The notes beneath the pieces are model-generated. The model was not told the origin of the DNA. It did not search any database and saw nothing but the letters and a program-made list of their open reading frames with translations. The position numbers and the translations under genes were made by a program. Source: Desulfocapsa sp. (GTDB lineage: Bacteria; Desulfobacterota; Desulfobulbia; Desulfobulbales; Desulfocapsaceae). From it: a DNA stretch of 32,136 nt. The stretch covers positions 1 to 32,136 of the forward strand of contig VMSP01000003.1 in assembly GCA_013792135.1 (NCBI GenBank), in the 5' to 3' direction. This document shows, in pieces, positions 2,264 to 19,144 of this stretch (position 1 is its first letter; every line of letters starts with the position of its first letter).

Positions 2264-2619
2264 CCATCCACAGAAGGTAACATATTTTCAAGGCATTATA
2301 GAGACACCGAAAAGCTGACAATAACTTCGTCAGTAGAGTAAGTGAATCATCCTTTCTTGTCAATTCCCGGAAAGTACCCCATAAAGCACCTTGTATCCCG
2401 GTGCCTGTTTTGATACGTTAAAAGTTCTCTCAGGTTTTATTTCCAAAAAAAGCTCTGCTTGATTTGGTCGCCCCCGACAGACAAATCACATTTTGTTATA
2501 GATTCACACGATCCTTTCAATCTTACAGCCTGTAAAAAATGTCAGCCAAACAGGATGTTCAAGAAGCATCTCTAGCCATAGGTGAACTTCACCGAGTACT
2601 GCCAAGGACTATATTTTTT
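2264..2619. other. divergent intergenic region between MFS and LapG-like genes
   Basis: The region separates a leftward exporter from a rightward protease, so it should carry promoters for both. I see TATAGAT at about 2498-2504 as a possible -10 element for the rightward gene but no matching -35. There is no sigma-54 motif. A frame open from 2539 could extend the protease by 27 non-signal-like residues. Confidence 0.35.
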
Positions 2620-3312
2620 ATGACTGACGCCGGATCATATGGATTGAATCAAAGAAGAACAGAATTTTTTACACTATTGCTATCAGCTGTTATGCTGGTA
2701 GTCTTTTTACTCTTTATGAGCGGTTGTGGAGCCAAGAGGAAAGTGGCAGAAGAAGCAGTTGCGCTTGATGCGGGCCAACAGAGAATAGCGGATTGGTATG
2801 CGTTAATAAAAGAGAAGCGTGATGCGTCTGAAATAGAGAAACTGAAATCAGTTAATTATTTTTTCAATCAACTTGAGTTTGTGGATGATCTGAGCCACTG
2901 GGGAAAAGATGACTACTGGGCCACACCCCAGGAAATGCTGGTTAGTAACGGAGGAGACTGTGAGGATTTTGCTACAGTCAAATATTTCACTTTACGTCTG
3001 CTTGATATCCCAGATGAAAAATTGCGCCTTGTATATGTAAAATCCCTGAAACTGAATCAGCCGCACATGGTCTTAAGTTATTATGCCGAGCCAACTACAG
3101 ATCCCCTTATTTTGGACAACTTGGTTCGTACGATCCTCTTTGCTTCGCAGCGAACGGACCTTATTCCAGTCTACAGTTTTAACGGTCAGGGATTATGGCT
3201 GACCAAAAAGGAAAGATCTGAGCGTTTGGGAGGAGCAGAGCGCTTGAGCCTATGGCAGGCATTGCAATCCCGATTCAACCAGGAAGACCTTGCCGCCCCA
3301 CTGCCAAAATAA
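2620..3312 (+). CDS. LapG-like periplasmic cysteine protease (BTLCP family)
   Basis: This is a transglutaminase-like cysteine protease of the family that contains LapG, which in other bacteria cuts large surface adhesins under control of a c-di-GMP receptor (LapD). Numbered from the upstream ATG at 2539, the triad is Cys141 in GGDCEDFATVK, His176 in QPHMVLSYY and Asp193 in LILDNL. The acidic residues after the cysteine fit the calcium site known in LapG. The C-terminal RTDLIPVYSFNGQGLWL block is also typical. A membrane segment (residues 45-62) ends in MSGC, which could be a lipoprotein signal with Cys63 as the lipidated residue. The start at 2620 was chosen because it gives a plausible short N-region before that helix. 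No good ribosome-binding site supports either start. No adhesin or LapD gene is next to it. Confidence 0.8.
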   Translation: MTDAGSYGLNQRRTEFFTLLLSAVMLVVFLLFMSGCGAKRKVAEEAVALDAGQQRIADWYALIKEKRDASEIEKLKSVNYFFNQLEFVDDLSHWGKDDYWATPQEMLVSNGGDCEDFATVKYFTLRLLDIPDEKLRLVYVKSLKLNQPHMVLSYYAEPTTDPLILDNLVRTILFASQRTDLIPVYSFNGQGLWLTKKERSERLGGAERLSLWQALQSRFNQEDLAAPLPK

Positions 3313-3845: not shown

Positions 3846-4400
3846 TTATAAACGTGAACAGCGCAGATCAACAACCGGAACATGAGAATGTTTCCGGTCT
3901 GCTCGCACTGCTGCTTCATCTGCCTTACTTAACACATAGCGAATACCTGCATCAGCAGCACTCACACGGGCAATAGCCTCTTGGGGATCGCTGACATCCA
4001 TCACATGCTCAACTTTGATTCCGCAGTCCATCGCCTGCATGATAAATTTTGCTGCATTCATCCTGGCCATCTCCATAAAACGATCAATTTCTCTTGTCCT
4101 TCTGTCACCTGAAAACTGTAGGGGTTTAGCTGTTACATCAAGGGCGACAATTTCACAGTCAAGTCGCTGGGCCATTTTCATGGCATAGTCTGTAATCTGC
4201 GCCGCATACTCTCCATCCTGGACCATAAGTACCTTTGTTGGAGAATTTCTCTGGTCTACCATCCTGGCCAGGATATCAGCGCCTGAAGTCAAACTTCCGG
4301 CCGCCATTACACCCATATCAACAGATTCTTCTTTGATCCTTTTCACATTGACTTGTTTATTTGTTTTCAGTCCTAATGCGAACCAATCAGTAAATCTCAT
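3846..4400 (-). CDS. universal-stress-like alpha/beta protein
   Basis: This 184-residue cytoplasmic protein has a middle segment that looks like the first half of a UspA-type fold: a beta strand (KVLMVQDG), a helix with AAQITDYAMKMAQRLDCE, then a second strand IVALDVTAKP. After a helical region (residues about 100-150, MEMARMNAAKFIMQ) comes a further strand-helix pair (IKVEHVMDVSDPQEAIARV). The canonical nucleotide-binding G-x-x-G motif of UspA is not obvious, so nucleotide binding is doubtful. The start was placed at the ATG with GAGGAG seven bases upstream. It is the first gene after a strong sigma-54 promoter and lies downstream of the receiver-Lon gene on the same strand. Another stress-type gene ends the 14-20 kb operon. 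Confidence 0.6.
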   Translation of the reverse strand: MRFTDWFALGLKTNKQVNVKRIKEESVDMGVMAAGSLTSGADILARMVDQRNSPTKVLMVQDGEYAAQITDYAMKMAQRLDCEIVALDVTAKPLQFSGDRRTREIDRFMEMARMNAAKFIMQAMDCGIKVEHVMDVSDPQEAIARVSAADAGIRYVLSKADEAAVRADRKHSHVPVVDLRCSRL

Positions 4401-4464
4401 GATGTTCTCCTCTCTATGATAGGTGTTTGTGAACATTTATCTATTGTGTCTTTGCTTAGTGTTT

Positions 4465-4482
4465 AGCATCTGCCATGCCAAA
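4465..4482 (-). promoter_or_regulatory. sigma-54 (RpoN) -24/-12 promoter for the stress-type gene
   Basis: The minus strand reads TTGGCATGGCAGATGCTA. The invariant GG and GC are exactly ten bases apart and the flanks agree well with the consensus TTGGCAC-N5-TTGCA. The predicted start is near 4454, leaving a leader of about 54 bases before the ATG at 4400. Confidence 0.7.
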
Positions 4483-4860
4483 TTAATAAATATTTTTTAT
4501 CAAAAGAAAACAGTATGTTATATAAATAAAAGACGGCTCCAACTCTGCTATGTCGTCAACCTCTAGTTATTGCAGCTTGAAACAGCTACCCTTCCCAAAA
4601 TCAAGTAAAATGCAGATTTCCTGACACAGAAGACTGCATCCACAGTGCATAACATTAAGGAATGTAAAGATATTCATAAAAGAATATCTTATGAGAAGCA
4701 GGAGGCTGTTGCAGGATGAAACTGTGTAACAGAATGCAACAAAAGACGTATCAGAAGGCAGTCGAAGAGGGAATAGACAAGCATTACAACAGAAGAGTAT
4801 TCCCTGGAAGTCAGGGAACCCTAGAATAGATCTTTCTGTTTTTCTTTGGGTAAAAAAGGA
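4483..4860. other. regulatory region upstream of the stress-type gene
   Basis: No gene is seen. There is a 9-bp perfect inverted repeat at 4667-4675 / 4682-4690 (AAGATATTC), a 7-bp hairpin at 4800-4818 (TTCCCTG...CAGGGAA) just after the Lon gene, and a TGTTGCA...TGCAACA pair at 4707-4713 and 4735-4741. The 4800-4818 hairpin lacks a T-run on the minus strand, so Lon transcripts may read through. Confidence 0.4.
4707..4741. promoter_or_regulatory. possible enhancer site: TGTTGCA / TGCAACA dyad
   Basis: Perfect 7-base half-sites lie at 4707-4713 and 4735-4741, separated by 21 bases. They sit about 225-260 bases upstream of the sigma-54 promoter, a normal distance for an activator site. The same half-site appears twice upstream of the kinase operon (7679-7718), which suggests a shared regulator. 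Confidence 0.4.
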
Positions 4861-6888
4861 TCAGACAAGCAGGTGCGGAATTGCCTCGTCAAGCGTATCG
4901 ACATACACCAGTTCCAGATGTCCCGTAACATCGTCACTTAATGAGGTCACATCTTCCTGGTTTTTTGCAGGCAGGACAACCTTGACACAGCCGGTTCGAA
5001 CACCAGCCAGGAGCTTTTCACGAATTCCACCAACAGGCAAAACCTGGCCGGTCAGTGTCATCTCACCGGTAATCGCTACTCTGCGATGTGCCGGACGGCC
5101 AGTCAGCAGAGAAACCAGCGCTATGGCTATGGCAAGGCCGGCCGAGGGACCATCTTTTGAAACCGCACCAGCTGGTAAGTGAATATGGATATCCGAATGA
5201 TCGTAGAAATCAGGCGCAATTCCAAGTCTTTCAGCATTACTTCTAATATAACTCAGAGCGGTCTGGGCTGATTCACGCAACACTTCGCCCAGTGATCCGG
5301 TAAGGATGAGATTCGTGTGGCCCCGCATTATCAAGGACTCGATAAACATAATCTGACCACCAAACTGGGTCCAGACCAGGCTGGTCACTACCCCTGCCTT
5401 GTCCTCGCCTTCGGCTGCTTCCTGACGATATTTACGAGGCCCGAGCATAGAGGTGATTGCAGCGTTGTCTATATCAGGCAGGGATTCCTGCGCATCGTTC
5501 TGCAGAACCTTCAGGGCAAGTTTACGACAGATGGTTCCGATTTCCCTATTGAGCCCTCGCACTCCGGATTCCCTGGTATATTCGATAATCAATTTTCCAA
5601 AAGCCTCATCGCTGATCCGGGGATTGATTGCGGTCAAGCCATGAGCAGCTAACTGCTTGGGTAAAAGGTATTTTCTGGCAATGACCTGCTTTTCCTGAAA
5701 CGAATAGCTGGGAAACTCAATCACTTCCAGGCGATCCAGTAGAGGACCTGGCAGTTTTGTGATATCATTTGCCGTAGCAATAAAGAGGACGCCGGACAGA
5801 TCAAAAGGGATATCAAGATAATGATCGATAAAGTTCTTATTCTGTTCAGGATCAAGGACCTCAAGCAAAGCTGAAGCGGGATCTCCCCTGAAATCTTGGC
5901 CGATCTTGTCAATCTCATCCAGGATAAAACAGGGGTTGGACACGCCGACCCGTTTGATTTCGTTAATGATGCGACCTGTCATGGCTCCGACATAGGTCCT
6001 CCGATGTCCACGGATTTCAGCCTCATCACGCAGACCCGCCATGGAGAGACGGACAAACTCCCGGCCAAGGGAGATAGCGACGGATTGGCCGATGGAAGTT
6101 TTTCCGGTACCGGGAGGACCCGAAAAGCAGAGAACAGGCCCATGGCTGACGTGTAGTTTTTTCTGTTTGTGGAGGAGCGCCTCTACCGTCTCTTTCAGTT
6201 CGTCAAGCCGAACCGGCTTCGACAGATAATGGGTCGCCCCTTTACGCAAGGCATCCACGGCATTGGACACCGTAGCATAACCGGTGACCATAATGACACT
6301 GGTCTTGGGAGATGCCTTGGACATCTTGTCAATCAGGGTAAGACCATCCATCTTATCCATTTTCAGGTCCGTGATCATCACATCAAAATGATCACTGTTT
6401 TCAACTTGCTGCAATGCATCCAAGCCGTTTACAGCGACCTGTACCGTATGACCAAGCCCCTTAAAAAAACGTTGCATATTCTTGCAGGCAATCTCTTCAT
6501 CATCAACAATCAATATTCTTGACTGCTGTTTATTTTTCAGGGTCTTGGTTGCCAGAAATTCCAGTACGCGTTCCTTGACCGCCTCAAGCCCGTAATGATG
6601 CGAGGCCATGATGGATTCAGCCCGTTTGAGATCAAGATTATCCTGGGTCTCCTTAAACCAAGGCAGCGACAACAACAGCTCGACATAGTCGATACCTATG
6701 GAAAACTCGGCAGCAAATTGATCAATTTTCCCAAGACGATCCAGTTCACCTGTCACCTGACGAGCAACGTAAGGCGGCAAATCAATTCCAGCGCTCCTGG
6801 TTTTCAAATCGGCTATCTGTCCGGAACTGATAGTTCCTGCAGGTTCTAATGTTTGGGGCGCTGCTTCTTTTTTTGAGAAAAAACTCAT
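4861..6888 (-). CDS. Lon-type ATP-dependent protease with an inserted response-regulator receiver domain
   Basis: This 675-residue cytoplasmic protein degrades proteins using ATP. Residues 1-120 correspond to the helical segment that precedes the Lon ATPase (SIGIDYVELLLSLPWF, then HYGLEAVKERVLEFLA). The large N-terminal substrate-binding LAN domain is missing, which explains the short length against about 780-800 for Lon. A complete receiver domain follows at 122-245: acidic pocket D129/D130, phospho-acceptor D174, T202 and K224. The AAA+ module has Walker A GPPGTGKT at 257-264 and Walker B ILDEID at 322-327. The C-terminal protease has the Ser-Lys dyad S582 (KDGPSAG) and K625 (REKLLAG). The receiver sits exactly between the helix and the Walker A strand. 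It resembles the receiver of the NtrC-type regulator at 9437-10813. All catalytic residues of every domain are intact, so phosphorylation-controlled proteolysis is plausible. Confidence 0.93.
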   Translation of the reverse strand: MSFFSKKEAAPQTLEPAGTISSGQIADLKTRSAGIDLPPYVARQVTGELDRLGKIDQFAAEFSIGIDYVELLLSLPWFKETQDNLDLKRAESIMASHHYGLEAVKERVLEFLATKTLKNKQQSRILIVDDEEIACKNMQRFFKGLGHTVQVAVNGLDALQQVENSDHFDVMITDLKMDKMDGLTLIDKMSKASPKTSVIMVTGYATVSNAVDALRKGATHYLSKPVRLDELKETVEALLHKQKKLHVSHGPVLCFSGPPGTGKTSIGQSVAISLGREFVRLSMAGLRDEAEIRGHRRTYVGAMTGRIINEIKRVGVSNPCFILDEIDKIGQDFRGDPASALLEVLDPEQNKNFIDHYLDIPFDLSGVLFIATANDITKLPGPLLDRLEVIEFPSYSFQEKQVIARKYLLPKQLAAHGLTAINPRISDEAFGKLIIEYTRESGVRGLNREIGTICRKLALKVLQNDAQESLPDIDNAAITSMLGPRKYRQEAAEGEDKAGVVTSLVWTQFGGQIMFIESLIMRGHTNLILTGSLGEVLRESAQTALSYIRSNAERLGIAPDFYDHSDIHIHLPAGAVSKDGPSAGLAIAIALVSLLTGRPAHRRVAITGEMTLTGQVLPVGGIREKLLAGVRTGCVKVVLPAKNQEDVTSLSDDVTGHLELVYVDTLDEAIPHLLV

Positions 6889-6990: not shown

Positions 6991-7326
6991 TCAACGACAA
7001 TTATAAGGTTGAATAAGAATCTTAGCCGGGATGTTGAAATGTTGATGAAGGTTGCGTATCATTCGGAGGGAAAGTGGTTTGCGACGATTAAGCACGGAAC
7101 TTATGTTGCCGGAACTGCCGATATCCGCCTTTAAATCCATATTGCGCAGGCCTCGTTGAGCCATAACTTCTTTCAGGTACTCAATAGGGTCCGGCAGATG
7201 TTCATCTGCATACAACTCTCCGGCAGATTCAATTGAAGAGATCACTTTATCAAGAATTTCTTGATCTTGATTGTAAATGAATTATTCGCTCCTTTCCATT
7301 ACGCTTGCCAGATTCATTCTATGCAT
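6991..7326 (-). pseudogene. HigA-like XRE-type regulator interrupted by an in-frame stop
   Basis: The C-terminal 84 residues match the HigA/COG5499 antitoxin type of helix-turn-helix protein: DPIEYLKEVMAQRGL, then a DNA-binding segment (GSSGNISSVLNRRKPLSLRMIRNLH) and FNIPAKILIQP. The best start is an ATG at 7324-7326 with AGGAG eight bases upstream. That frame meets a TAA at 7282-7284 after 14 codons (MHRMNLASVMERSE), then continues in frame into the family-like helical N-terminus. Translation could restart at the GTG at 7243-7245, but no ribosome-binding site is seen there. Family members usually have about 110-135 residues, as the interrupted frame would. No HigB-type toxin is recognisable beside it. 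A decayed antitoxin is the simplest reading; a short leader peptide with re-initiation is the alternative. Confidence 0.6.
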
Positions 7327-7678
7327 AGTTTTTTCTCCTAAAATAAACAACTGCTAATCGAAAAATGACTGTGAATGCTTGATTTGTATCCTCACATTGA
7401 GCGATGCAAATCAATAACAATATTTTTTTCATATGAGACTTGTAAAGCATCTTCCTCTCAGTAAACAGATAAATCACGAATATATTCAGTTTTTGATTTG
7501 CAACCTGTATGCCGTTTCTCATCAGGTTAAATAAAAAAGATGTTGATCGCTTTCCATAGCTTTAGCTTCAGGTGAAGAATGAGGGGAATAAGAGGGAGAA
7601 GAATTTATTACAGGACCTAAACGCTTGCGAAAACAAGAAATTAATTACTCTTTTACCTGACAGCAGGCGTTGCAAATA

Positions 7679-7718
7679 GCAACACTTGCTGTTGCAATAA
7701 TGTTGTGAATATGCAACA
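7679..7718. promoter_or_regulatory. tandem dyad sites, probable enhancer-binding elements
   Basis: Two adjacent dyads share the half-site TGTTGC/GCAACA. One is GCAACA-N5-TGTTGC at 7679-7695 (perfect). The other is TGTTGT-N6-GCAACA at 7701-7718 (one mismatch). Centres lie about 22 bases apart, two helical turns, and about 95-125 bases upstream of the -24 element, the usual place for NtrC-type activators. Confidence 0.5.
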
Positions 7719-7971: not shown

Positions 7972-9444
7972 ATGTTTTCTTTAAATCTACGCCAGAAGAT
8001 GATTGGTTGCTTTTGCCTCCATTTGTTTTTTTACATTATTATTGTGATCACTTTCTTAAAAGATTTTGACATGTTTAACAAGGATGTCGCTTTATTAATC
8101 CATGCCGGGAATATCAGTAATATCTGCCTTGAAATACGACGTTATGAGAAAAACTACATCATCGCTCATAATAATGATGATTTTACCAAAGTCCTTGAAT
8201 ACATTAACGAGGCACAGCAATTTGCCCCCCAAGTCATGAATGATTTGAAGATCATGCCCCAGCCGACACATCTGCAGAACATTTCCAGTAAACTGGCAGA
8301 ATATAAGACGAGTTTCCAAGACCTTAAAGAACAATGCATCTCCGGTCAGGAGCTTACCGTGTGTCCCTTGCGAGAAAAGGTACGTGGCCTGGGACAAGAA
8401 TTGGTCAACATCACCGAAGACCTGATCCTGTTCGAACAGCACAAAATGAACACCTTCATCGCCAAGTTTAAAAGTCGACTGGCAAAAACGATTTCTTTTC
8501 TTATTTTTCTCTCAATTTTCACCATCACAACTCTCTACATCTCAATTATCAAGCCCTTAAAAAGGGTGGAAAAAGCTGCAATAGCCATTGCCAATGGGAC
8601 CTTTTCACCGCTACCCGTTGATGAAAAAAAAGGTGAGGTGCGCAGTGTACTTAGGGCCTTTAATAAAATGGTCACAGATCTCGAAAAACAACAGGGACAG
8701 CTCTTTCAGGCGGCAAAGCTCTCTTCAATTGGCACTCTGGCCTCAGGAACAGCGCACCAGATAAATAATCCGCTCAATAATATTGCCACATCCTGCCAGC
8801 TGGCCCTTGCTGAGATAGACCCCGAGCAGAGTCCTTTTGTCGTCAAGATGCTGGAGACCATCAATCAGGAAACCGAACGTGCCGGGAAAATTGTTCGCGG
8901 TCTGCTGGAATTTTCCAGAGATCAGAACTTTTCCCTGCATCCGTATCCTCTTGCAGAAGTTGTAAACAGGGTAAAACAGCTTGTTACCGGTGAAGTCCCT
9001 GCCGGAGTCGATATGCAGATTAGTATCCCTGAGGATATAATCCTCTATATCGATGTCCATAAAATGACTGAAGCCTTATTGAATCTTACAATCAATGCAC
9101 TTCAGGCCATCACTGAACCGCCGGGGATCGTCTCTATCGGAGCAGAAAAAGATGGCGACAATACAAATGCAGTCATTACCATTGCCGATACAGGCAGAGG
9201 CATTGAGGAAGAGAACCTGCAGAAGATATTTGACCCGTTTTTCACCACCAAAAATGCAGAAAATGGAACCGGTCTTGGATTGGCAGTTGCCTATGGGATT
9301 ATAAATAAACAAAAAGGTTCCATCCAGGTAGAATCGGAAAAAGGAAAGGGAACTCGGTTCATTATCACGCTGCCGCTCCATCTCGAAGCTGAAGGAACAG
9401 GTTCTCCCGGTCAAACTCCACTATCCAGAAATGACAATGTCTGA
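7972..9444 (+). CDS. sensor histidine kinase 1 (periplasmic helical sensor, HAMP, HisKA, HATPase)
   Basis: This inner-membrane kinase has 490 residues. A membrane helix at 11-29 and another at 173-192 enclose a periplasmic domain of about 140 residues beginning with [12 protein letters not shown], a pattern seen in four-helix sensor domains. The periplasmic part has two cysteines, C122 and C131. A HAMP region (about 193-245) leads to the H-box [18 protein letters not shown] with phospho-acceptor H262. The ATPase has N375, DTGRG at 406-410 and GTGLGLA at 432-438. The residue after the histidine is Q263 rather than the usual glutamate or aspartate, which may alter kinase or phosphatase activity. 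The start has TGAGGT six bases upstream. It overlaps the regulator gene that follows and is paralogous to the kinase at 11049-12515. Confidence 0.9.
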
Positions 9445-10813
9445 AAAACCTACTATTGCAATTTTACTGGTTGACGACGAAGTAATAAACCTTGAGAACG
9501 TCGGTCATTTCCTGGAACAGCAAAGGTTTCAGGTCACAACTGCAACAAACGGCAGCGAAGCAATCAGCTTGCTGCAACAGTCCCATTTCGATCTGGTAAT
9601 AACGGATTTAAAAATGGGTGACGTTGATGGCATTCAAGTTATGAATACTGCCAAGGAACTCCAGCCGGAGATTGAGGTTATTATTGTTACCGGCTATGCA
9701 ACCATCAACTCGGCTGTAGATGTCATGGCCCAGGGAGCATTCTATTATCTCTCTAAACCGATTAAGCTCAAAGAACTTCATGCCCTGGTTCTCAGGGCCG
9801 TTGAAAAGACAATGCTGCTGCGGGAGATCACTCGTCTCAAACGACGCATCAAGACACAACAGGGAACGACTCAGTTTATTGGCCAGAACCCGGCAATACT
9901 GGAGCTTAAGGACTCTATTGTCCGTTTTGCCCAGCTTGACTGCAATATTTTGATCACCGGTGAAACCGGAACCGGTAAAGAGTTGGTGGCCAGGACTATT
10001 TATGAACTGAGCCCCAGGGCCAATAAACGCTTTCTCCCTATTAACTGTGGGGCAATGACGGAAGAGTTGATGGTCAACGAACTCTTCGGCCATGAAAAAG
10101 ATGCCTACACCGATGCCGGTGGCTTACGTAACGGGCTTCTCGAATCAGCCAATGGCGGGGTTGTTTTATTTGACGAAATAGGTGAAATGCCGCTTACCAT
10201 GCAGGTAAAGTTACTACGGGTGCTACAGGAGAGAAAAATTATCAGGGTCGGTGGCACCAAAGAGATACCAATAGATATCCGGGTGCTGGCTGCAACCAAC
10301 CGGGATCTCAAGAAAGAAGTGCAAAAAAAATCATTTCGCCAGGATCTCTATTACCGGTTGAATGTCGTCAATCTTCATATTCCGCCGCTCCGGGATAGAA
10401 AGGACGATATCTCCCTTCTGGTCAACTATTTTCTGGCCAAACATCCCCCAAGTGGAGGAACCAAAACTGTCTCTCGAGAAGCACTACGGCGTCTACAGTG
10501 TTACGATTACCCGGGCAATGCACGAGAACTTGAAAATATCATTGAACGCTCCCTGGCACTTTGTGACACCTCAGAGATACAACCATACCATCTTCCATCG
10601 GACCTAAGCAGCAGCCCCAATTTTCACCTGCCAAAGATCGAGGCCGTCAACTCAAGCCAGAGCCTTGACGACAATGAACGCGAATATATTCTTTCGGTCC
10701 TTAAAAGCGTTGACGGTAATAAGACACAAGCTGCTAAGATCATCGGTATTGACAGGGTTTCCCTCTGGCGAAAGTTGAAAAGATATGAAAATATCGGAAT
10801 TGACACAGGGTGA
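9437..10813 (+). CDS. NtrC-type sigma-54 response regulator 1
   Basis: This cognate regulator of the preceding kinase overlaps its end by eight bases. Counted from the ATG two codons earlier (9431), the receiver has D15/D16, phospho-acceptor D59, T87 and K109. The AAA+ domain has an intact Walker A (GETGTGKE, 177-184) and Walker B (LFDEIG, 246-251). The Fis-type helix-turn-helix is at 429-452 (NKTQAAKIIGIDRVSLWRKLKRY). The loop that contacts sigma-54, normally GAFTGA, reads DAYTDA at 224-229. The aromatic change is mild, but both glycines are replaced by aspartate. That may weaken or re-tune contact with sigma-54. Likely targets are the TTGCA-rich dyads upstream of its own operon and possibly the site at 4707-4741. 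Confidence 0.9.
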   Translation: MSEKPTIAILLVDDEVINLENVGHFLEQQRFQVTTATNGSEAISLLQQSHFDLVITDLKMGDVDGIQVMNTAKELQPEIEVIIVTGYATINSAVDVMAQGAFYYLSKPIKLKELHALVLRAVEKTMLLREITRLKRRIKTQQGTTQFIGQNPAILELKDSIVRFAQLDCNILITGETGTGKELVARTIYELSPRANKRFLPINCGAMTEELMVNELFGHEKDAYTDAGGLRNGLLESANGGVVLFDEIGEMPLTMQVKLLRVLQERKIIRVGGTKEIPIDIRVLAATNRDLKKEVQKKSFRQDLYYRLNVVNLHIPPLRDRKDDISLLVNYFLAKHPPSGGTKTVSREALRRLQCYDYPGNARELENIIERSLALCDTSEIQPYHLPSDLSSSPNFHLPKIEAVNSSQSLDDNEREYILSVLKSVDGNKTQAAKIIGIDRVSLWRKLKRYENIGIDTG

Positions 10814-11048: not shown

Positions 11049-12515
11049 ATGCAGATTCCATGTATGTTTAATCAGTGTACAATCCGGCAGCGACTGATAC
11101 TGCTTAACTCCATTACCTTGGTGCTTATTGTTACCCTCGTCTCTATATATACCTACCAGCTTATTTCGCTGGAGAGCAAGCTGATAACCATGGAGCGGGT
11201 TGACGATCTTTTTAGCAATATCCTGGAAGCGCGTCGTTATGAAAAAAATATCATGCTTCAGTTGGATAAAAACAATGTAACAAAGGCCAGACAGTCGTTG
11301 CAGAAAACAACTACTTCAATTGAAGAGTTATCACCTAAGTTCAATGAGTTATCTGAGCAAAAACTATTTCTTCAGCTCAAGGAAAGTTTCACCAAATATA
11401 AGGTCATTTTTGACCATTGGTGTGCAGATGGAGAGTGTGTAACAGATCCTGCTCAACAGGATGACAGTTACCTTATCCGGCAGGAGGGGCAAACGCTGGC
11501 AGACAATGCGGCTGAACTGGTTCATCTCAAGAGAAAACATATCAGTGAGGGGTTCAAAGAGATTCTCTTCTGGCTGACCTTTATGCCAGCCGTGCTATTT
11601 ATATGTGGAGTAATTCTGTTTTTCTCACAGATCAGAAGCATACTCACCCGCCTTTCCTCGTTAGATCAGGGGACTAAGAACCTGGCGGCGGGGGAGTTTA
11701 AAATCATTCCAACAACTGACACCTCACCAGATGAGATCTCAGGACTTATTGATGATTTTAATAAGATGGTCGGGGCATTGGAACAAAAGCAGGAGGAATT
11801 GATTCAGTCAAAAAAAATGGCCTCCATCGGCACTTTCTCCTCAGGCATTGCCCATGAAATCAATAATCCACTCAATAACATCTCCCTCTCTACAGATATC
11901 ATTCTGGAGGAGTTCGACTCTATGGAGGATGAGGAAATCAAGGAGATTTTGGGTGATATCATGACCCAGACAGATCGGGCCAGTAAGATCGTCAAAAATT
12001 TGCTGGATTTTTCCCGGGTTCAGTCTTCAGAGATGCAACCGGTGTACATCGATTTTGTCCTGCATAAGACAACAGATCTTATCGCTAATGAACTGCGTAT
12101 TCATAAAATTGCCTTGGAAAAAGACATTATTGACCTCCTGCCCCAAGTCAATGGAGATTTACAAAAACTCCAGCAGGTATTTCTCAACCTGATCATCAAT
12201 GCGGAGCAGGCCATCGGCGATTACGGAACCATCACCATCCAGGCCTGCAAAACAGATACAGGATATGTTCGCGTCAACATCTGTGATACCGGCCCAGGCA
12301 TTGCCCAGGAAAACATCGATCAGATTTTTGACCCTTTTTTTACCACGAAAGGGGTAGGCAAGGGAACAGGACTAGGTCTGTCCATTGTCTATGCCATTGT
12401 TAAAGAACATGGCGGATATATTGAAGTTACCAGCAAACTGGATGAAGGAACGACCTTTTCCGTATATCTGCCTGTGTACCATGATAATGAGAACAAGGAG
12501 CAGCAGCCCATATGA
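11049..12515 (+). CDS. sensor histidine kinase 2, paralogue of kinase 1
   Basis: This 488-residue membrane kinase has the same architecture as the kinase at 7972-9444. A membrane helix lies at 16-35, followed by a periplasmic helical sensor starting LEARRYEKNIML, and a second helix at 174-193. A HAMP region follows, then the H-box ASIGTFSSGIAHEINNPL with H269 and the canonical E270. The ATPase has N384, DTGPG at 413-417 and GTGLGLS at 439-445. The periplasmic domain has C125 and C130 in HWCADGEC, so both sensors share a cysteine pair near the same place. GAGGAAGA lies just upstream of the start. The stop overlaps the next start by four bases (ATGA). The 235 bases before it hold no convincing promoter, so it may be read from the first pair. 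Confidence 0.9.
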   Translation: MQIPCMFNQCTIRQRLILLNSITLVLIVTLVSIYTYQLISLESKLITMERVDDLFSNILEARRYEKNIMLQLDKNNVTKARQSLQKTTTSIEELSPKFNELSEQKLFLQLKESFTKYKVIFDHWCADGECVTDPAQQDDSYLIRQEGQTLADNAAELVHLKRKHISEGFKEILFWLTFMPAVLFICGVILFFSQIRSILTRLSSLDQGTKNLAAGEFKIIPTTDTSPDEISGLIDDFNKMVGALEQKQEELIQSKKMASIGTFSSGIAHEINNPLNNISLSTDIILEEFDSMEDEEIKEILGDIMTQTDRASKIVKNLLDFSRVQSSEMQPVYIDFVLHKTTDLIANELRIHKIALEKDIIDLLPQVNGDLQKLQQVFLNLIINAEQAIGDYGTITIQACKTDTGYVRVNICDTGPGIAQENIDQIFDPFFTTKGVGKGTGLGLSIVYAIVKEHGGYIEVTSKLDEGTTFSVYLPVYHDNENKEQQPI

Positions 12516-13876
12516 TAACCATTGCCATTATCGATGATGAAGAAACTGCGAGAAAAATGGCAGGCCTTATCCTGAGCAAGGCTGGTTATACCGTAGAGAC
12601 CTTTGCTGCAGGTGCTCCATTTCTGCAGAGAATGGAGCAAGATCCGTTTGATATTGTTTTTCTGGATTTGCAGCTACCTGACATGGGGGGACTGGAAATT
12701 CTGGATCATATCAAAGCGATCCACCAGGAGACAGAGACCGTAATTGTGACCGGATATGGTTCCATTGAAAATGCGGTAGAGGCGACCAAAAGGGGGGCAT
12801 TTCATTATTTGACCAAACCCTGTCGCAGTCATGACCTCTGCCTGATGGCCGAACGAGCTGCTGAAAAAATCAAATTACATCAGGAGAACACACGCCTGAA
12901 ATCACAGGTGGGCAATGGCACCCTGCTGCCCGGATTTATCGGCAACAGTAAGGCAATGCAACCGATATTTGAATTAATCGGCAAGGTTGCCCAAGTGAAC
13001 TGCAATGTTCTTCTGGAAGCAGAAACCGGTACCGGCAAACAGCTGACTGCCCGGGCCATCCATGAACTTGGCCCGAGAAAGAACGCGCCCTTTGTTTATT
13101 TCAACTGTGGCGGTTTTAGTGAAGATCTGATCTGTAACGAGCTGTTCGGCCATGAAAAGGATGCCTTTACCGGTGCATCCGCATGCAAGATCGGTCTGCT
13201 GGAATCGGCTGCCGGCGGAACGGTGTTTCTCGATGAGATCGGAGAGATGCCCCTGTCCATGCAGGTAAAACTGCTTCACGTTCTTCAGGAGCGTCAAGTA
13301 CTCAGGGTGGGTGGGATCAAACCCATTGATCTCAATATTCGTATTATTGCCGCGACCAATAAAGATTTCAAACAGCTTATCCAGAAGGGGACATTCCGGG
13401 AGGATTTGTATTATCGGCTGAATGTGGTGACAATCCGTTTACCCCGGCTTTGTGAACGAAGGGAGGATATTCCTCTGCTGATTTATCATTTTATCGCTAA
13501 GTCCAATAAGGCATTTTCCAAGGACATCCAGGGGATTTCCTCCCGTGCTCTGGATCTGCTTATGCATTATAATTTCCCGGGAAACGTGCGGGAACTCGAA
13601 AATATCATCCAGCACGCAGCAGCTCTAACTGAAGGGAAAAAACTCATTCCGGAAGATTTTCCTACTCACCTGCGAAAATTACACCTGCAGGATAATTACG
13701 AAGAGGATCTTTTACCGTTGGACAACATGGAAAAACGCTATATTTCAAAAGTTTTACAGAAAACAGGGAACAATATTAAGGCCGCAGGCAAGATACTGAA
13801 AATGTCCCGAACGACCCTGTGGCGAAGAATAAAAAAATATGGCCTTTCCGAACCAACCGACCGCAATGGATCTTAG
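12512..13876 (+). CDS. NtrC-type sigma-54 response regulator 2
   Basis: This 454-residue partner of kinase 2 is translationally coupled through ATGA. The receiver has D8/D9, phospho-acceptor D52, T80 and K102. The AAA+ domain keeps a near-canonical sigma-54 loop (DAFTGA, 217-222) and an intact Walker B (FLDEIG, 239-244). Its Walker A reads AETGTGKQ at 170-177, with alanine replacing the first glycine and glutamine replacing the glutamate after the lysine. The conserved PPLRER segment reads PRLCER at 311-316. The Fis-type DNA-binding domain is at about 418-443 (NNIKAAGKILKMSRTTLWRRIKKY). ATP binding may be weakened, but the essential lysine is kept. It ends 236 bases before the sigma-54 promoter of the exporter operon, a natural target. 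Confidence 0.9.
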   Translation: MITIAIIDDEETARKMAGLILSKAGYTVETFAAGAPFLQRMEQDPFDIVFLDLQLPDMGGLEILDHIKAIHQETETVIVTGYGSIENAVEATKRGAFHYLTKPCRSHDLCLMAERAAEKIKLHQENTRLKSQVGNGTLLPGFIGNSKAMQPIFELIGKVAQVNCNVLLEAETGTGKQLTARAIHELGPRKNAPFVYFNCGGFSEDLICNELFGHEKDAFTGASACKIGLLESAAGGTVFLDEIGEMPLSMQVKLLHVLQERQVLRVGGIKPIDLNIRIIAATNKDFKQLIQKGTFREDLYYRLNVVTIRLPRLCERREDIPLLIYHFIAKSNKAFSKDIQGISSRALDLLMHYNFPGNVRELENIIQHAAALTEGKKLIPEDFPTHLRKLHLQDNYEEDLLPLDNMEKRYISKVLQKTGNNIKAAGKILKMSRTTLWRRIKKYGLSEPTDRNGS

Positions 13877-14111: not shown

Positions 14112-14129
14112 CTGGCATCTCTATTGCTA
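14112..14129 (+). promoter_or_regulatory. sigma-54 (RpoN) promoter of the exporter operon
   Basis: CTGGCATCTCTATTGCTA matches the consensus at TGGCA and TTGCT, with GG and GC ten bases apart. Transcription should begin near 14139 and run into the exporter gene at 14326. Confidence 0.75.
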
Positions 14130-14325: not shown

Positions 14326-15261
14326 ATGTTTTATATGTATTTACCTATTGCAGGAAATAGTGTGAACATTCTCCTGATTCTGGGTTTGGGCGGTTTTGTC
14401 GGGCTGCTTTCAGGTATCTTCGGTGTAGGTGGTGGTTTTCTCATGACCCCCCTGCTCATGATGTTCGGCATTCCGCCGACCGTGGCTGCGGCCTCCGACT
14501 CAAACCAGATTGTCGGGGCTTCAACGTCGGGGACCCTGGCTCATATGCGGCATGGGAACGTGGATATAGCCATGGGTGTCATGCTGTTGATCGGCGGTAT
14601 TGCCGGTGGTACCGTAGGCGTCCAGATCATTAAACTCCTGCGTGCCATTGGGGGTGCTGATTTTCTCATCGCCATCACCTACGTCATTATGCTTGGCGGG
14701 GTGGGTGGCTATATGTTCTGGGAGAGCCTGCAGAGCATGAAAAAAAGTAAGACCACGACTGCAGAAGCAAAAATGTCTGCGGGTGAGCAAAAACCTACCA
14801 AGAAGTCATTGCTGCAAATGCTGCCCCTTCAATACAAGTTCGAGAAGTCAGGTTGTCATATTTCCATGCTGCTGCCCCTCGGTTTTGGTATTCTGGTGGG
14901 TATCCTGGCCGCTATCATGGGTGTTGGCGGTGGTTTTATCATGGTACCGGTCATGGTCTACCTCCTGCGGATGCCCATGCATGTCGTTGTCGGAACCAGC
15001 CTGTTCCAGATCCTTTTTACCTGCATCAACGTCACCGTCATGCAGGCTTACAGTAACAAAACTGTTGATTTTGTCCTTGCAGTCCTCCTGTTACTGGGCT
15101 CAACCATTGGTGCCCAGGTAGGAACCAGTATTGGTAAAAAGCTTAAGGCCGATCAGCTCAAAATTATGTTGGCAAGCCTAGTTCTGCTGGTCTGTGCAAA
15201 GATGATGGCCGGTTTGCTGATGACCCCAACAATTATGGTGGCCCTCAAGGGTGGTCATTAA
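14326..15261 (+). CDS. TSUP-family (TauE/SafE) membrane transporter
   Basis: This 311-residue inner-membrane protein belongs to the family that exports sulfite, sulfoacetate and related organosulfur anions, sometimes other small carboxylates. It has the family's two-fold repeat. The first half carries GFVGLLSGIFGVGGGFLMTPLL and the second carries ILVGILAAIMGVGGGFIMVPVMVYLL. A hydrophilic loop of about 45 residues joins the halves (about 140-180). It is the first gene behind the sigma-54 promoter and is followed closely by the TIGR02186 protein, a pairing I recognise from other proteobacteria. Sulfite or another sulfur oxyanion is the likely substrate in this organism, but that is inference from family and context. 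Confidence 0.88.
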   Translation: MFYMYLPIAGNSVNILLILGLGGFVGLLSGIFGVGGGFLMTPLLMMFGIPPTVAAASDSNQIVGASTSGTLAHMRHGNVDIAMGVMLLIGGIAGGTVGVQIIKLLRAIGGADFLIAITYVIMLGGVGGYMFWESLQSMKKSKTTTAEAKMSAGEQKPTKKSLLQMLPLQYKFEKSGCHISMLLPLGFGILVGILAAIMGVGGGFIMVPVMVYLLRMPMHVVVGTSLFQILFTCINVTVMQAYSNKTVDFVLAVLLLLGSTIGAQVGTSIGKKLKADQLKIMLASLVLLVCAKMMAGLLMTPTIMVALKGGH

Positions 15262-15283
15262 GATGTATACGGAGAAAAATATA

Positions 15284-16057
15284 ATGAAACGAGTTGTGTA
15301 TGGATTGCTGACAGTTGTTCTGGTGAGTCTGGCCTGGTTCAATTCGTCCATGGCAGCGGAAGGACCGTTGTTGCTCGAGCTTGCCAAAACTAATATTAAG
15401 ATATCCACATTTTACAATGGCACAACCCTCGATGTTGCCGGCAGTTTACCTGCTGATGAGGATGTAGTTGTGCAGCTCAGTGGACCTAAAAAAGATGTCC
15501 ATTTGAAGGAAAAAGGAAAGGTAGCTGGTTTTTTATGGATGAACAAAACCGATGTCTCCCTGGAAAATACCCCGGCCGTCTACATGGTGTATACCCCGAC
15601 CGGCTCAACGGCAGATAAATTTCTCAACCCTGATCTGGGGGTGGGCTACCAGGCGCTGGTCAAGGATATAACCAGCAATCCGGAATCTGCCGATAAGACT
15701 TTTATCTTTGGTGAGTATGTTAAGTTGATGGAAAAATCAGGAGTCTATGCTATCAATGAGGGCACTGTCAAATATGGCGAGCCCAACGATGGGATGAAGA
15801 GCTTTATTATTACCTTAACCATTCCTTCAAAGATGAGTGCGGGCACCTACAAGGTTGCAGCCCTTGCCATGAAAGATGGCGTGGTGACCAGCCGGGTAAC
15901 TGAGGACCTTACTCTGGAATTATCCGGGCTGCCTGCAGCTATCTCCTCGATGGCCTATGGCAGGCCGCTACTCTTCGGTTTTATGGCCGTATTTATCGCG
16001 GTTGGTGCTGGATTACTTGTCGGAGTTCTTTTCCGGGGTGGCGGAGGGGCCCATTAA
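15284..16057 (+). CDS. TIGR02186-like membrane-anchored periplasmic protein
   Basis: This 257-residue protein has an N-terminal signal peptide (MKRVVYGLLTVVLVSLAWFNSSMAA). The periplasmic domain begins LLLELAKTNIKISTFYNGTTLDVAG, typical of the TIGR02186 family found next to TSUP transporters. One C-terminal membrane helix (about 229-251) ends in a glycine-rich tail (RGGGGAH). The chosen ATG has GGAG about nine bases upstream; an earlier in-frame start would overlap the exporter and disrupt the signal peptide. Its biochemical role is unknown. The constant pairing suggests an accessory or substrate-handling subunit of the exporter. It is the second gene of the sigma-54 operon. Confidence 0.8.
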   Translation: MKRVVYGLLTVVLVSLAWFNSSMAAEGPLLLELAKTNIKISTFYNGTTLDVAGSLPADEDVVVQLSGPKKDVHLKEKGKVAGFLWMNKTDVSLENTPAVYMVYTPTGSTADKFLNPDLGVGYQALVKDITSNPESADKTFIFGEYVKLMEKSGVYAINEGTVKYGEPNDGMKSFIITLTIPSKMSAGTYKVAALAMKDGVVTSRVTEDLTLELSGLPAAISSMAYGRPLLFGFMAVFIAVGAGLLVGVLFRGGGGAH

Positions 16058-16090
16058 GCATATTGCTTAAAATTAGAACATGAGAAAATC

Positions 16091-18655
16091 ATGAAAAACT
16101 TTCTGCAACGGGTCGGTCAGTTCTTTCAGACAAAAGAGCAGACAATTGTCCCGTTTAAGCTCATCTTTGCCGACTTTAAGAAGATTCTGAATCTCAATAA
16201 TCAGATTCTGGATCTTATCGCCGATGCAAATGACAAGTTGAGCGGGGACTATATCTTTGATGAGCAGTATATCCATAGCACCTGCCATCAATTGACCGAC
16301 TTGGTGCGGGAACTCATTGTTCTTATCAACCACCTGACACAGCAGAAATATTCAGATCTGTACAGCAGTTTTCACCATATTGATGAGAAGATTGAAACCA
16401 TTCTGCAGGGAGTTGTCCTCTGCCCGGTGAAGGACTTTATCCTGCCATATTCATCTATTACCCGGGACCTTATCGACGCTGTAGGCGGGAAAAATGCCAA
16501 TCTTGCCGAGATAGGTTCCGTGCTTGGCTTTCACATACCGGATGGTTTTGCCATAACCACAGCGGCATTCTCGGCCTTTTGGTTGGAGAACAACCTCGAG
16601 GAAAAGGTTGCTGCGATTATCGAGCAATGGCAACAAAAGGCTATATCCGACGAAGAGATGGCCTGGGAAATTCAACGGATGATCTTTGACTCAACAGTAC
16701 CAGCAAAACTCAAGAGGGATATGCTTGATGCCGCCGGCAGTCTTAGCAAAGGAAAACTGGAAGCAACTCCCCATTTTGCTGTCCGCTCAAGTGCTCAAGG
16801 CGAGGATGGTATCTCCTCCTTTGCCGGGCAGTATCGCAGCTGTTTGAATATTCCCCTCAAAAATCTGCCACAGGCATATAAGGAGGTCGTTGCCAGTCTC
16901 TATAGCCCCGAAGCCATGGAATACCGGCGACGTAAAGATTTCCGGGCCAATGAAATCAAAATGTCTGTGGCCTGTCAGTTGATGATATCGGCAAAGACAA
17001 GTGGCGTGATGTACAGTTATGACCCGGTGCTGCCGGAAGAGGAGACGCTGGTCATCAGCTCTGCCTGGGGACTGGGTGAACCCATTGTCTCTGGAAAAAT
17101 TTCCACAGACCTCTTTGTTCTCGACCGGCAACCACCCCATGCGGTCAAAGAAGTACAGGTCGTCCGTAAAGAACAAAGCATGAGTTTACATGGATCTGGT
17201 GGTATCGTCATGGAGTCGGTACGGGAAGAACAACGAACACAACCCAGCCTGAAGAATCAGCAGTTGAAAGAGCTCGCCCAAGTAGGGCTGCAGCTGGAAA
17301 AATACTTTAAAAAACCGCAAGATGTAGAGTTTTCCATTGACCAGCAAGACAGGATTATTATCTTGCAGTCCCGACAGCTGAGCCTGCAGCAGGAACAGAT
17401 GCCTCGGGCTTCTGATTTGACCGATATTAGTGGCAAATATCCCATTCTCATGCAGGGTAAAGGCATTGCGGCCATGAAAGGAATTGCTTCCGGACCAGTC
17501 TGGGTTCTAGAGCATGATAGTACCCTCCAGGACTTTCCCATGGGTGCTATTCTGGTGGCCCGTTATGCGTCACCACAACTGGCACGGGTGATCCATAAAG
17601 CCAGCGGCTTTATAACTGATATCGGCTCAACCACCGGTCATTTAGCCACCGTGGCCAGGGAATTCCGGGTGCCGGCCCTGTTCAACACAGAAAACGCCAT
17701 CACTCTGCTTAAACATGGACAGGAAATTACCCTGGATACGGAGAGCCTGACCGTATATGAAGGGATCGTGCACGAACTTCATTATTACAGCTTTCATGAA
17801 GAACCTATCGAAGAGATGTATGAGTACCGGCTGCTGCGGCGGTTACTCAAAAAGATAGAACCTCTTAATCTCTTTGATCCACGTGATGAGAATTTCACAC
17901 CCAAAGGCTGTCAGACCTATCATGACCTGACTCGATTTGTCCATGAAAAGGCAGTGGAGACGATCATTGATCTTAACTTTTACCATACCCATCAGCGGGA
18001 TACTCAGGCCGGACAGCTGCTGTGGAGTTACCCTCTTGATTTGATTCTGATTGATGTCGGAGGCGGTATAGAGGGAGAACATGATAAAGGAATACGACCC
18101 GAACAGATACGTTCCATTCCCATGCAGACCTTGCTGCACGGCATGTCTCATCCCGGTATCTGGGATATGTCGCCCATGAAGGTTGATTTTGGTAGTTTTA
18201 TGTCAAGTCTAACCAAGACCCCACCAACTGGTAATTCAAGACCGGAAGATGTGGGTCGCAACCTCGCGGTAATCTCGGCTGAGTATACTAATATTAATTT
18301 TCGCCTGGGCTATCACTTTACAGTCATTGATGCCTACCTCTCTGATAATATACTAGATAACCACATCTACTTCAGGTTTTCCGGTGGAGTGACTGATACA
18401 GTTCGGCGTTCACGCAGAACCAGCCTGCTCAATAAAATTTTATCCCATTACGATTTTCTATGTGAACAGCACGGCGATATTATCGTTGCTCGCTTAAAAA
18501 GAATGAACAAGGAGAGTATGCTCAAACGCTTATTTCTGCTGGGAATGCTGATCGGCTTTACTCGACAGCTGGATGTCAAGATGGTCAGCGATGCAACGAT
18601 ATCGGTTTATTTTGAACAGATTAAAACCATAATGGAGGAGAGTTATGGCAAGTGA
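16091..18655 (+). CDS. PEP/pyruvate-binding (PPDK/PpsA-like) protein lacking the PEP barrel
   Basis: This 854-residue cytoplasmic protein has an unusual domain order. Residues 1-115 are a helical domain I do not recognise. Residues 120-430 are an ATP-grasp domain of the PPDK/PEP-synthase type (AVGGKNANLAEI, HFAVRSSAQGED-x-x-x-SFAGQY, SSAWGLGEPIVSG, DVEFSIDQQDRIIILQSR). Residues 455-560 are the swivelling phosphohistidine domain, with GFITDIGSTTGHLATVARE and the likely phospho-acceptor H517. Residues 575-854 then replace the usual PEP/pyruvate TIM barrel with an unrecognised domain (RLGYHFTVIDAYL, then FRFSGGVTD). It could therefore form a phosphohistidine from ATP but lacks the standard site to pass it to pyruvate. 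Phosphotransfer to a protein or other molecule is one possibility. It overlaps the receiver gene that follows by 11 bases, implying coupled translation. Confidence 0.85.
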   Translation: MKNFLQRVGQFFQTKEQTIVPFKLIFADFKKILNLNNQILDLIADANDKLSGDYIFDEQYIHSTCHQLTDLVRELIVLINHLTQQKYSDLYSSFHHIDEKIETILQGVVLCPVKDFILPYSSITRDLIDAVGGKNANLAEIGSVLGFHIPDGFAITTAAFSAFWLENNLEEKVAAIIEQWQQKAISDEEMAWEIQRMIFDSTVPAKLKRDMLDAAGSLSKGKLEATPHFAVRSSAQGEDGISSFAGQYRSCLNIPLKNLPQAYKEVVASLYSPEAMEYRRRKDFRANEIKMSVACQLMISAKTSGVMYSYDPVLPEEETLVISSAWGLGEPIVSGKISTDLFVLDRQPPHAVKEVQVVRKEQSMSLHGSGGIVMESVREEQRTQPSLKNQQLKELAQVGLQLEKYFKKPQDVEFSIDQQDRIIILQSRQLSLQQEQMPRASDLTDISGKYPILMQGKGIAAMKGIASGPVWVLEHDSTLQDFPMGAILVARYASPQLARVIHKASGFITDIGSTTGHLATVAREFRVPALFNTENAITLLKHGQEITLDTESLTVYEGIVHELHYYSFHEEPIEEMYEYRLLRRLLKKIEPLNLFDPRDENFTPKGCQTYHDLTRFVHEKAVETIIDLNFYHTHQRDTQAGQLLWSYPLDLILIDVGGGIEGEHDKGIRPEQIRSIPMQTLLHGMSHPGIWDMSPMKVDFGSFMSSLTKTPPTGNSRPEDVGRNLAVISAEYTNINFRLGYHFTVIDAYLSDNILDNHIYFRFSGGVTDTVRRSRRTSLLNKILSHYDFLCEQHGDIIVARLKRMNKESMLKRLFLLGMLIGFTRQLDVKMVSDATISVYFEQIKTIMEESYGK

Positions 18656-19028
18656 ACAGACCAGTATTCTGATACTGGATGATGAACCTATTGTTAGTAA
18701 ACGACTAAAGCCATCTCTTGAGAAAAAAGGCTACGAAGTAGAGACCTTCACCAGCAGTGCCGATGCGCTGAAACGGGTAACAGAACGGAAATTTAATATC
18801 GTTATTACGGATTTAAAAATGGACGGCGTAGATGGTATGCAGTTCCTGACCGAGGTTAAGGAAAAATATCCGGATACGGAGGTCATCGTCATTACCGGTT
18901 TTGCGACTATGGCAACAGCAAAAGAATCGTTCAATAGGGGGGGGTTTGATTTTTTAGCCAAGCCCTTCAAGCTGGGAGAAATTGCCGAGGTCATCAGCAG
19001 GGCAGAGGAAAAGATAAAGAATAAGTAA
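18645..19028 (+). CDS. single-domain response regulator
   Basis: This 127-residue protein is a receiver domain and nothing else. It has D12/D13, phospho-acceptor D56 in VITDLKMDGVDGM, T84 and K106 in LAKPFKLGE. With no output domain it must act by protein contact or as a phosphate carrier, like CheY or Spo0F. AGGAGAG lies just before its ATG, inside the 3' end of the PPDK-like gene, so the two are translationally coupled and probably work together. The VITDLKM-x-x-x-DG motif is shared with regulator 1 and the receiver inside the Lon-type protease, which hints at a common kinase. Confidence 0.92.
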   Translation: MASEQTSILILDDEPIVSKRLKPSLEKKGYEVETFTSSADALKRVTERKFNIVITDLKMDGVDGMQFLTEVKEKYPDTEVIVITGFATMATAKESFNRGGFDFLAKPFKLGEIAEVISRAEEKIKNK

Positions 19029-19144
19029 ATGTTCGGCAGCACTCCATCTGCAACTCTTGAAGCACCCGAAGAGTTAAAAAAATAACTGAGAGTTTCATTC
19101 CCTGGATCCAGGATAATAGTTACTTGTTTCGTAAGGTGAGCACC

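Follow-up and report, generated by a model that had tools for sequence, protein, structure and literature searches.

The window analysed here, a 32,136-nucleotide stretch of Desulfocapsa sp. (positions 1 to 32,136 of contig VMSP01000003.1, assembly GCA_013792135.1), carries a gene for a Lon-type protease, hereafter REC-Lon, with a phospho-receiver domain (REC) built into its chain directly ahead of the AAA+ motor. The same domain order recurs in the genomes of many sulfate reducers and related bacteria, and the gene is linked to those of a histidine kinase and a sigma54-type response regulator. On balance, and with some reserve, we favour the view that REC-Lon is the proteolytic output of a two-component system with two outputs, in which one kinase would serve two receivers. 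The architecture and the hypothesis of its phosphorylation are already in print. A paper of 2011 presented DVU3303 of Desulfovibrio vulgaris Hildenborough as a response regulator with a Lon protease in it, which forms a "three-component system" with the kinase DVU3304 and the regulator DVU3305 (PMC3333781). Its phosphorylation has been suggested, and Usp-type genes and a putative anion transporter are given among the targets of the system (PMC3333781, PMC10102598). The newness implied by a preliminary description of this DNA, made from its letters, is therefore not upheld, the same domain idea, partner types and hypothesis having been published. A literature search that covered few subscription journals returned, among the matches listed, no paper on such proteins beyond those on D. 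vulgaris.

REC-Lon and its parts lie as follows:

4861-6888, minus strand: REC-Lon, 675 amino acids, one intact open reading frame with an ATG start
6529-6825, minus strand: equivalent of the Lon three-helix bundle, residues about 22-120 (alignment with ordinary Lons and structural-alignment ranges on MtaLon)
6157-6519, minus strand: receiver domain, residues 124-244, with D129, D130, D174, T202 and K224 (Pfam, strands and helices of the model, alignment)
5716-6132, minus strand: AAA+ large subdomain, residues 253-391, with Walker A GPPGTGKT (257-264) and Walker B LDEIDK (323-328) (Pfam, residue check)
5488-5646, minus strand: Lon AAA+ lid, residues 415-467 (Pfam)
4867-5472, minus strand: S16 protease domain, residues 473-674, with S582 and K625 (Pfam, residue check)

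The plus-strand frame across 4861-6888 contains many stops, and REC-Lon is encoded on the minus strand, a point on which the preliminary description was silent. Pfam placed Response_reg at residues 125-235 with 96.6 bits (cut-off 30.2), AAA at 253-391, Lon_lid at 415-467 and Lon_C at 473-674, and the NCBIfam model TIGR00763 ('endopeptidase La') matched with 686.5 bits (cut-off 608.05). The Pfam scan of the protein gave no match to LAN, Sigma54_activat or HTH_8. D129, D130, D174, T202, K224, S582 and K625, on which the preliminary description had relied, were each confirmed in place. When REC-Lon was aligned with ten ordinary Lons, of which its own genome supplied three, the receiver came out as a pure insertion between '...LEFLAVRKLK' and 'HGPILCF..GPPG': the residues ahead of it align with the three-helix-bundle segment, and the sequences match again from (H)GPILCF, ahead of Walker A. 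The proposed position of the receiver between the pre-AAA helices and Walker A was thus borne out by Pfam and by this alignment. The junction is indeed short in ordinary Lon, with only a few residues in the ten aligned proteins, and the absence of LAN, also claimed earlier, agrees with the Pfam scan and with an alignment that starts near residue 243/244 of MtaLon.

A structure predicted from an alignment of 20 rows reached at best a mean predicted local distance difference test score (pLDDT) of 82.5 and a predicted template modelling score of 0.76, the other four models having a pLDDT of 69.2 to 77.9. Against solved chains, the top Z-score was obtained with Yersinia pestis Lon (6on2; Z 35.1, 504 residues, 3.8 Å). 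MtaLon (7yup) matched over 508 residues at 2.5 Å (Z 31.2; model residues 23-675 on chain residues 244-771), and the three-helix-bundle/AAA fragment 4ypn over 234 residues at 2.5 Å. The structural alignments to Lon chains cover stretches on either side of the receiver; for the receiver itself, the solved chains that score best belong to the NtrC family. The model suggests that the receiver loops out from a Lon core that is standard in other respects, and the lost part would correspond roughly to residues 1-242 of MtaLon, its N-terminal globular and long-helix parts as they are named in PMC10643698.

REC-Lon is a LAN-less Lon derivative and not a standard LonA. It shares with LonA proteins such as MtaLon and Escherichia coli Lon the three-helix bundle, the AAA+ domain, the lid and the Ser-Lys protease domain, but is devoid of the N-terminal globular (LAN) and long-helix parts and has the receiver inserted before AAA+. 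A receiver directly ahead of an AAA+ domain is also found in the NtrC/NtrC1 family, but the AAA+ domain of REC-Lon is Lon-type and comes without a match to a sigma54-interaction or DNA-binding domain. Receivers are known to steer AAA+ proteases as adaptors acting in trans, as RssB and CpdR do for ClpXP, whereas in REC-Lon the receiver sits in the protease chain itself.

Conservation was scored in 86 loci, 80 parsed together and 6 aligned separately; L076, which runs off the end of its contig, was left out, as were L073 and L254, which duplicate L181 and L070, and L085 and L170, which are the same protein, both stand within the 80 rows. D129, D174, K224, the lysine of Walker A, the aspartate and glutamate of Walker B, S582 and K625 are present in all 86 rows. 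D130 is retained in 84, with E in L178 and L179, and position 202 is T in 82 and S in 4. In 80/80 rows, 154-156 residues separate position 101 from Walker A. Judged by these alignments, the receiver and Lon halves are both under selection. For the two REC-Lons with E in place of D130 (genomes G106 and G070), the top nearby regulator scores just 319-321 bits. At the N-terminus, residues 1-10 (6859-6888, minus strand) carry a motif M..(hydrophobic)F..K/R found in 75 of 80 REC-Lons, before a tail of low model confidence; it could be a targeting or membrane-touching end.

The preliminary description had proposed a search for the same domain order elsewhere, and this was fruitful. The full-length order was found in 23 of 58 genomes among relatives (own genome included), one copy of these (G030) having a TGA within the matched stretch. 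In genomes drawn from Desulfobacterota, the phylum of the window, it was present in at least 37 of 297 (own included), with scores of at least 952 bits and the next match at 744. It was likewise present in at least 20 of 148 genomes from the phylum of a Nitrospirota metagenome-assembled genome (centre included), with scores of at least 1050 bits and the next match at 738. It was also found in 10 of 16 individually chosen genomes, 8 of the 16 having been chosen because they were carriers. Among the matches listed, named carriers were Desulfocurvus, Halodesulfovibrio, Desulfomicrobium, Desulfacinum and Nitrospirota metagenome-assembled genomes, and relatives came also from Desulfovibrionaceae. 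In a sample of Pseudomonadota, the phylum of a Rhodocyclus record, 0 of 397 genomes matched at E <= 1e-230 with three candidates scored per listed genome, a zero that means not seen in a sample without a known positive and is no proof of absence. Thioalkalivibrio and Dechloromonas are given among genomes with orthologs of the DVU3305-type partner regulator (PMC3333781). In an unrooted tree of the AAA+ and protease part, obtained by a quick method from 31 REC-Lons (3 more chosen ones being left out) and 30 ordinary Lons, the REC-Lons form one side of a single branch (Shimodaira-Hasegawa-like approximate likelihood ratio test support 98), which fits one origin. Within the genus (G007, G008 and G016 versus G011 and G013), identity to the REC-Lon of the window is 96 and 86% on the one hand and only 50% on the other, which suggests replacement or two lineages.

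Around REC-Lon in the window lie two kinase/regulator pairs, a Usp-like gene and a permease gene:

7972-9444, plus strand: histidine kinase 1 (HAMP, HisKA, HATPase; Pfam), likely the shared kinase, of a kind that recurs beside REC-Lon
9431-10813, plus strand: sigma54-type response regulator 1 (RR1; REC, sigma54 AAA+, Fis helix-turn-helix), likely the sister output (Pfam, locus and receiver comparison)
11049-12515, plus strand: histidine kinase 2, of the second pair, with a looser link to REC-Lon (Pfam, locus comparison, alpha-1 comparison)
12512-13876, plus strand: sigma54-type response regulator 2 (Pfam, locus comparison)
3846-4436, minus strand: 196-residue Usp-like gene downstream of lon on the same strand (Usp match 18.7 bits, below the cut-off of 24)
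14326-15261, plus strand: TauE/SafE permease (Pfam)

RR1 lies 2.5 kb from lon, as had been noted. In common with the published description of the DVU3303 system, to which it is likened on that basis, the window has REC and Lon in one chain with a histidine kinase and a sigma54-type regulator alongside; it differs in that lon lies on the strand opposite to the kinase/regulator pair and that a second such pair follows. We compared the proteins of the window with the open reading frames of 76 other REC-Lon loci, of which 75 were counted (L073, the copy of L181, was dropped; L085 and L170 are one record twice), and required, within 8 kb of lon, at least 150 bits for a kinase, 250 for a sigma54-type regulator and 60 for TauE/SafE. 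A kinase together with a sigma54-type regulator was found at 59 of the 75 loci and at 0 of 20 ordinary lon loci, picked from the listed best matches of the 297-genome sample, and a TauE/SafE gene at 45 of 75 versus 0 of 20 (Fisher p 4e-11 and 3e-7, a guide only as the genomes are related). At the control loci two kinases matched with 122 and 89 bits, too low to be counted. Among 55 loci lon and the pair are convergent in 28, divergent in 12 and on the same strand in 15 (lon upstream in 10, downstream in 5), so that the linkage survives rearrangement.

A search of the whole genome with the receiver of REC-Lon gave 105 matches including itself. The nearest of the 104 others is the receiver of RR1 (90.5 bits, 45% identity), in agreement with the resemblance claimed in the preliminary description. 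A single-domain receiver at 18657 (76.9 bits) and the receiver of regulator 2 (74.6 bits, a near-tie with the following match at 74.3) come next, these top three all lying inside the window. The alpha-1 helix is the main kinase-recognition (docking) surface of receivers, and it was compared in 55 loci (60 had a regulator, 5 with a best neighbour of the regulator-2 type being dropped, and the window was set to RR1 by hand). Over these loci the alpha-1 of REC-Lon shares 54.0% identity with that of the adjacent regulator and 20.1% with those of 28 other receivers of the genome of the window, and in 44 of the 55 pairs none of the 28 controls comes as close as the adjacent regulator. Outside alpha-1 the receiver is 47.8% identical to that of the adjacent regulator and 35.8% to the controls. 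By segment, the corresponding values are 71.8 and 33.2 in the beta4-alpha4 loop, 57.2 and 43.0 in alpha-4, 30.9 and 20.3 in the beta5-alpha5 loop, 34.0 and 29.4 in alpha-2, 28.2 and 29.4 in beta-2, and 28.7 and 23.6 in alpha-3, so that the beta4-alpha4 loop and alpha-1 stand out most from the controls. When matching positions of the two receivers were tested for covariation, the mean z was 2.2 in alpha-1 and 1.4 elsewhere. Across the family the identities point to one kinase serving both receivers, most likely the one beside RR1.

A DNA motif may tie the regulator to the protease gene. When exact palindromes were sought, with no prior motif, in the upstream stretches (at most 300 bases) of 79 REC-Lon genes, the commonest were GTTGC-N5-GCAAC (17 of 79) and TTGCA-N3-TGCAA (16 of 79), the best palindrome in five shuffles reaching 3. 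Merging the two gives the motif TGTTGCA-N3-TGCAACA, which, with up to 2 mismatches, has 96 sites in 51 of 56 REC-Lon loci (1.01 Mb) versus 2 in 2 of 20 control loci (0.40 Mb), an enrichment that is partly circular, as the motif was derived from the same loci. The window itself has four sites:

4568-4584: palindrome, 2 mismatches, upstream of the Usp-like gene (motif scan)
4707-4723: palindrome, 2 mismatches, upstream of the Usp-like gene (motif scan)
4725-4741: palindrome, 2 mismatches, upstream of the Usp-like gene (motif scan)
7668-7684: palindrome, 2 mismatches, between lon and kinase 1 (motif scan)

By chance 0.21 would be expected, none of 100 shuffles reaches 4, and these are 4 of the 18 sites in the whole genome (binomial p 1e-5). 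No site at up to 2 mismatches is present in the 300 bases that precede the lon gene of the window, so that this excess is less circular. At 3 mismatches there are 5 sites versus 2.07 expected, a number reached by 3 of 100 shuffles, and only the 2-mismatch count is striking. We take the palindrome to be a putative RR1 site. Among 33 neighbouring pairs of sites less than 400 bases apart (REC-Lon loci L148-L203), 18 are spaced by 86-91 bases, about eight helical turns, which may be the loop or oligomer geometry of an activator. Two sigma54-like elements were also found by consensus match:

4465-4480, minus strand: TGGCATGGCAGATGCT, -24/-12 element before the Usp-like gene, putative promoter
14113-14128, plus strand: TGGCATCTCTATTGCT, before the TauE gene, putative promoter

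Right upstream of REC-Lon genes the sigma54 pattern occurs in 2 of 79 stretches (shuffled mean 0.1) and is not a general feature.

We propose that a histidine kinase, most likely kinase 1, would phosphorylate both the receiver of RR1 and that of REC-Lon, the latter at D174. Phosphorylated RR1 would then bind the palindrome and switch on the genes that carry it, namely the REC-Lon gene in many genomes and, in the window, the kinase region and the Usp-like gene. The AAA+ ring of LONP1 and of E. coli Lon becomes active when the N-terminal part engages substrate, and a loop between the coiled coil and the three-helix bundle is essential (PMC12994072); for MtaLon, recruitment of the sixth protomer may depend on substrate (PMC10643698). 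As the substrate-sensing part has been lost and the receiver sits in the next joint, we infer that phosphorylation of D174 may have taken over from substrate engagement the control of ring assembly or of ATPase activity, possibly through altered pairing of receivers or altered contact of the receiver with the ring. It is only tentatively, and with the balance of probability somewhat against it, that we suggest that such a phospho-switch replaced substrate engagement as the ring trigger and that one kinase commands transcription, through RR1, and protein destruction, through REC-Lon, at once. Least certain is that phosphorylation would activate rather than inhibit REC-Lon, a direction drawn by analogy from the shared phenotype of D. 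vulgaris mutants: all pairwise cofitness values among DVU3303-3305 exceed 0.9, the three genes being detrimental in chlorate, and the putative anion transporter DVU3299 is a target (PMC10102598, 2023). DVU3305 is entered with a GAFSGA motif and with the targets given for the system (PMC4641369).

Several observations weigh against this scheme. The model of REC-Lon is a single chain and says nothing on the hexamer, the cofitness in D. vulgaris could include polar effects, and no phosphotransfer, protease or other biochemical assay of REC-Lon was found among the literature matches listed. The pair is missing within 8 kb at 16 of the 75 loci, seven of which have more than 8 kb on both sides, the rest being cut shorter. 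The excess over controls in the beta4-alpha4 loop equals that in alpha-1 in size, with only a modest one in the beta5-alpha5 loop. The likeness of the receivers may be partly common descent: outside alpha-1, too, same-locus pairs exceed cross-locus pairs (47.8 versus 46.4), and the six strongest covariation positions lie outside alpha-1, the seventh (144) being inside. Covariation adds little. Finally, the window's own REC-Lon and RR1 are only 21.4% identical in alpha-1, a value equalled or beaten by 4 of the 28 controls and shared by the alpha-1 of regulator 2. The claim that REC-Lon responds to the kinase of RR1 thus stands on the family-wide likeness of alpha-1 (54% versus 20%), and its kinase-docking argument is not borne out by the window's own pair.

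This last point bears on the possibility that the clade of the window was rewired, so that its REC-Lon takes its signal from kinase 2, or from a kinase encoded far away, instead of from kinase 1. The alpha-1 helices of REC-Lon and RR1 have drifted apart not only in the window but also in L185 (21.4%) and L186 (7.1%), and a second kinase/regulator pair is at hand in the window. Set against this, whole-receiver similarity puts RR1 first of 104, and alpha-1 is no closer to regulator 2, which as a sister output is weaker by the whole receiver (74.6 versus 90.5 bits) and equal by alpha-1. We regard rewiring as unlikely, and within this clade the choice between kinases 1 and 2 follows solely from whole-receiver similarity and gene order.

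The likeness of the two receivers could also have another meaning, in that the receiver of REC-Lon might serve for docking and substrate delivery: once phosphorylated, it would pair with the receivers of RR1 or of other partners that have one and hand these proteins over to the protease, as a negative feedback on the regulon. The ordinary substrate-binding part is absent from REC-Lon, so another recruiter is needed, and receivers serve as protease adaptors elsewhere (RssB, CpdR). Negative feedback predicts opposite phenotypes, however, and the cofitness of the three D. vulgaris genes is above 0.9 (PMC10102598), so we think this reading improbable, though worth keeping in mind.

It is likewise doubtful that phosphorylation turns the protease off, with unphosphorylated REC-Lon destroying a factor until the kinase fires. 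The receivers of NtrC-like proteins can inhibit as well as activate an AAA+ ring, in line with such a switch. Serine phosphorylation deactivates ordinary Lon in Xanthomonas citri (PMC5784255). In D. vulgaris, however, the kinase, the regulator and the protease have fitness effects of the same sign, which suits co-activation better (PMC10102598).

Much less probable is that the receiver is a phosphate sink, which would drain phosphate from the kinase and so tune RR1 while proteolysis ran independently; the receivers are alike, as a sink would have it, but the near-fixed length of the insertion (80/80 rows) speaks against it, and a sink need not occupy a joint of the Lon motor. An artefact has a negligible chance, nothing in its favour having been found: a frameshift or misassembly joining two genes is ruled out by full-length recurrence across the three genome samples, and a pseudogene or decayed receiver or fusion by the conservation of the active-site residues in 86 rows.

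A receiver within the protease chain is carried by at least the 37 and 20 genomes counted above. Should it govern ring assembly, activation of Lon could be addressed cleanly and by chemical means through a two-component kinase, and nature would here provide an example of a kinase whose signal is divided between transcription and proteolysis. With its conserved gene trio and the palindrome, the system lends itself to direct tests in the laboratory strain D. vulgaris Hildenborough.

Other features of the window were noted around these genes. Directly upstream of lon, between it and kinase 1, a small open reading frame (6991-7245, minus strand) with no Pfam match reads like a HigA-type antitoxin and was matched, among the compared loci, only in the near relatives L184, L185 and L186. 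On the far side of lon, 2539-3312 (plus strand) encodes a LapG-like cysteine protease (230.6 bits; NCBIfam cut-off 320). From 14326 to 19939 (plus strand) runs a series of genes for the TauE/SafE permease, an Alph_Pro_TM protein, an 854-residue protein with PPDK_N and PEP-utilisers domains, a 127-residue single-domain receiver and a 271-residue protein, parts of which recur near some other REC-Lons.

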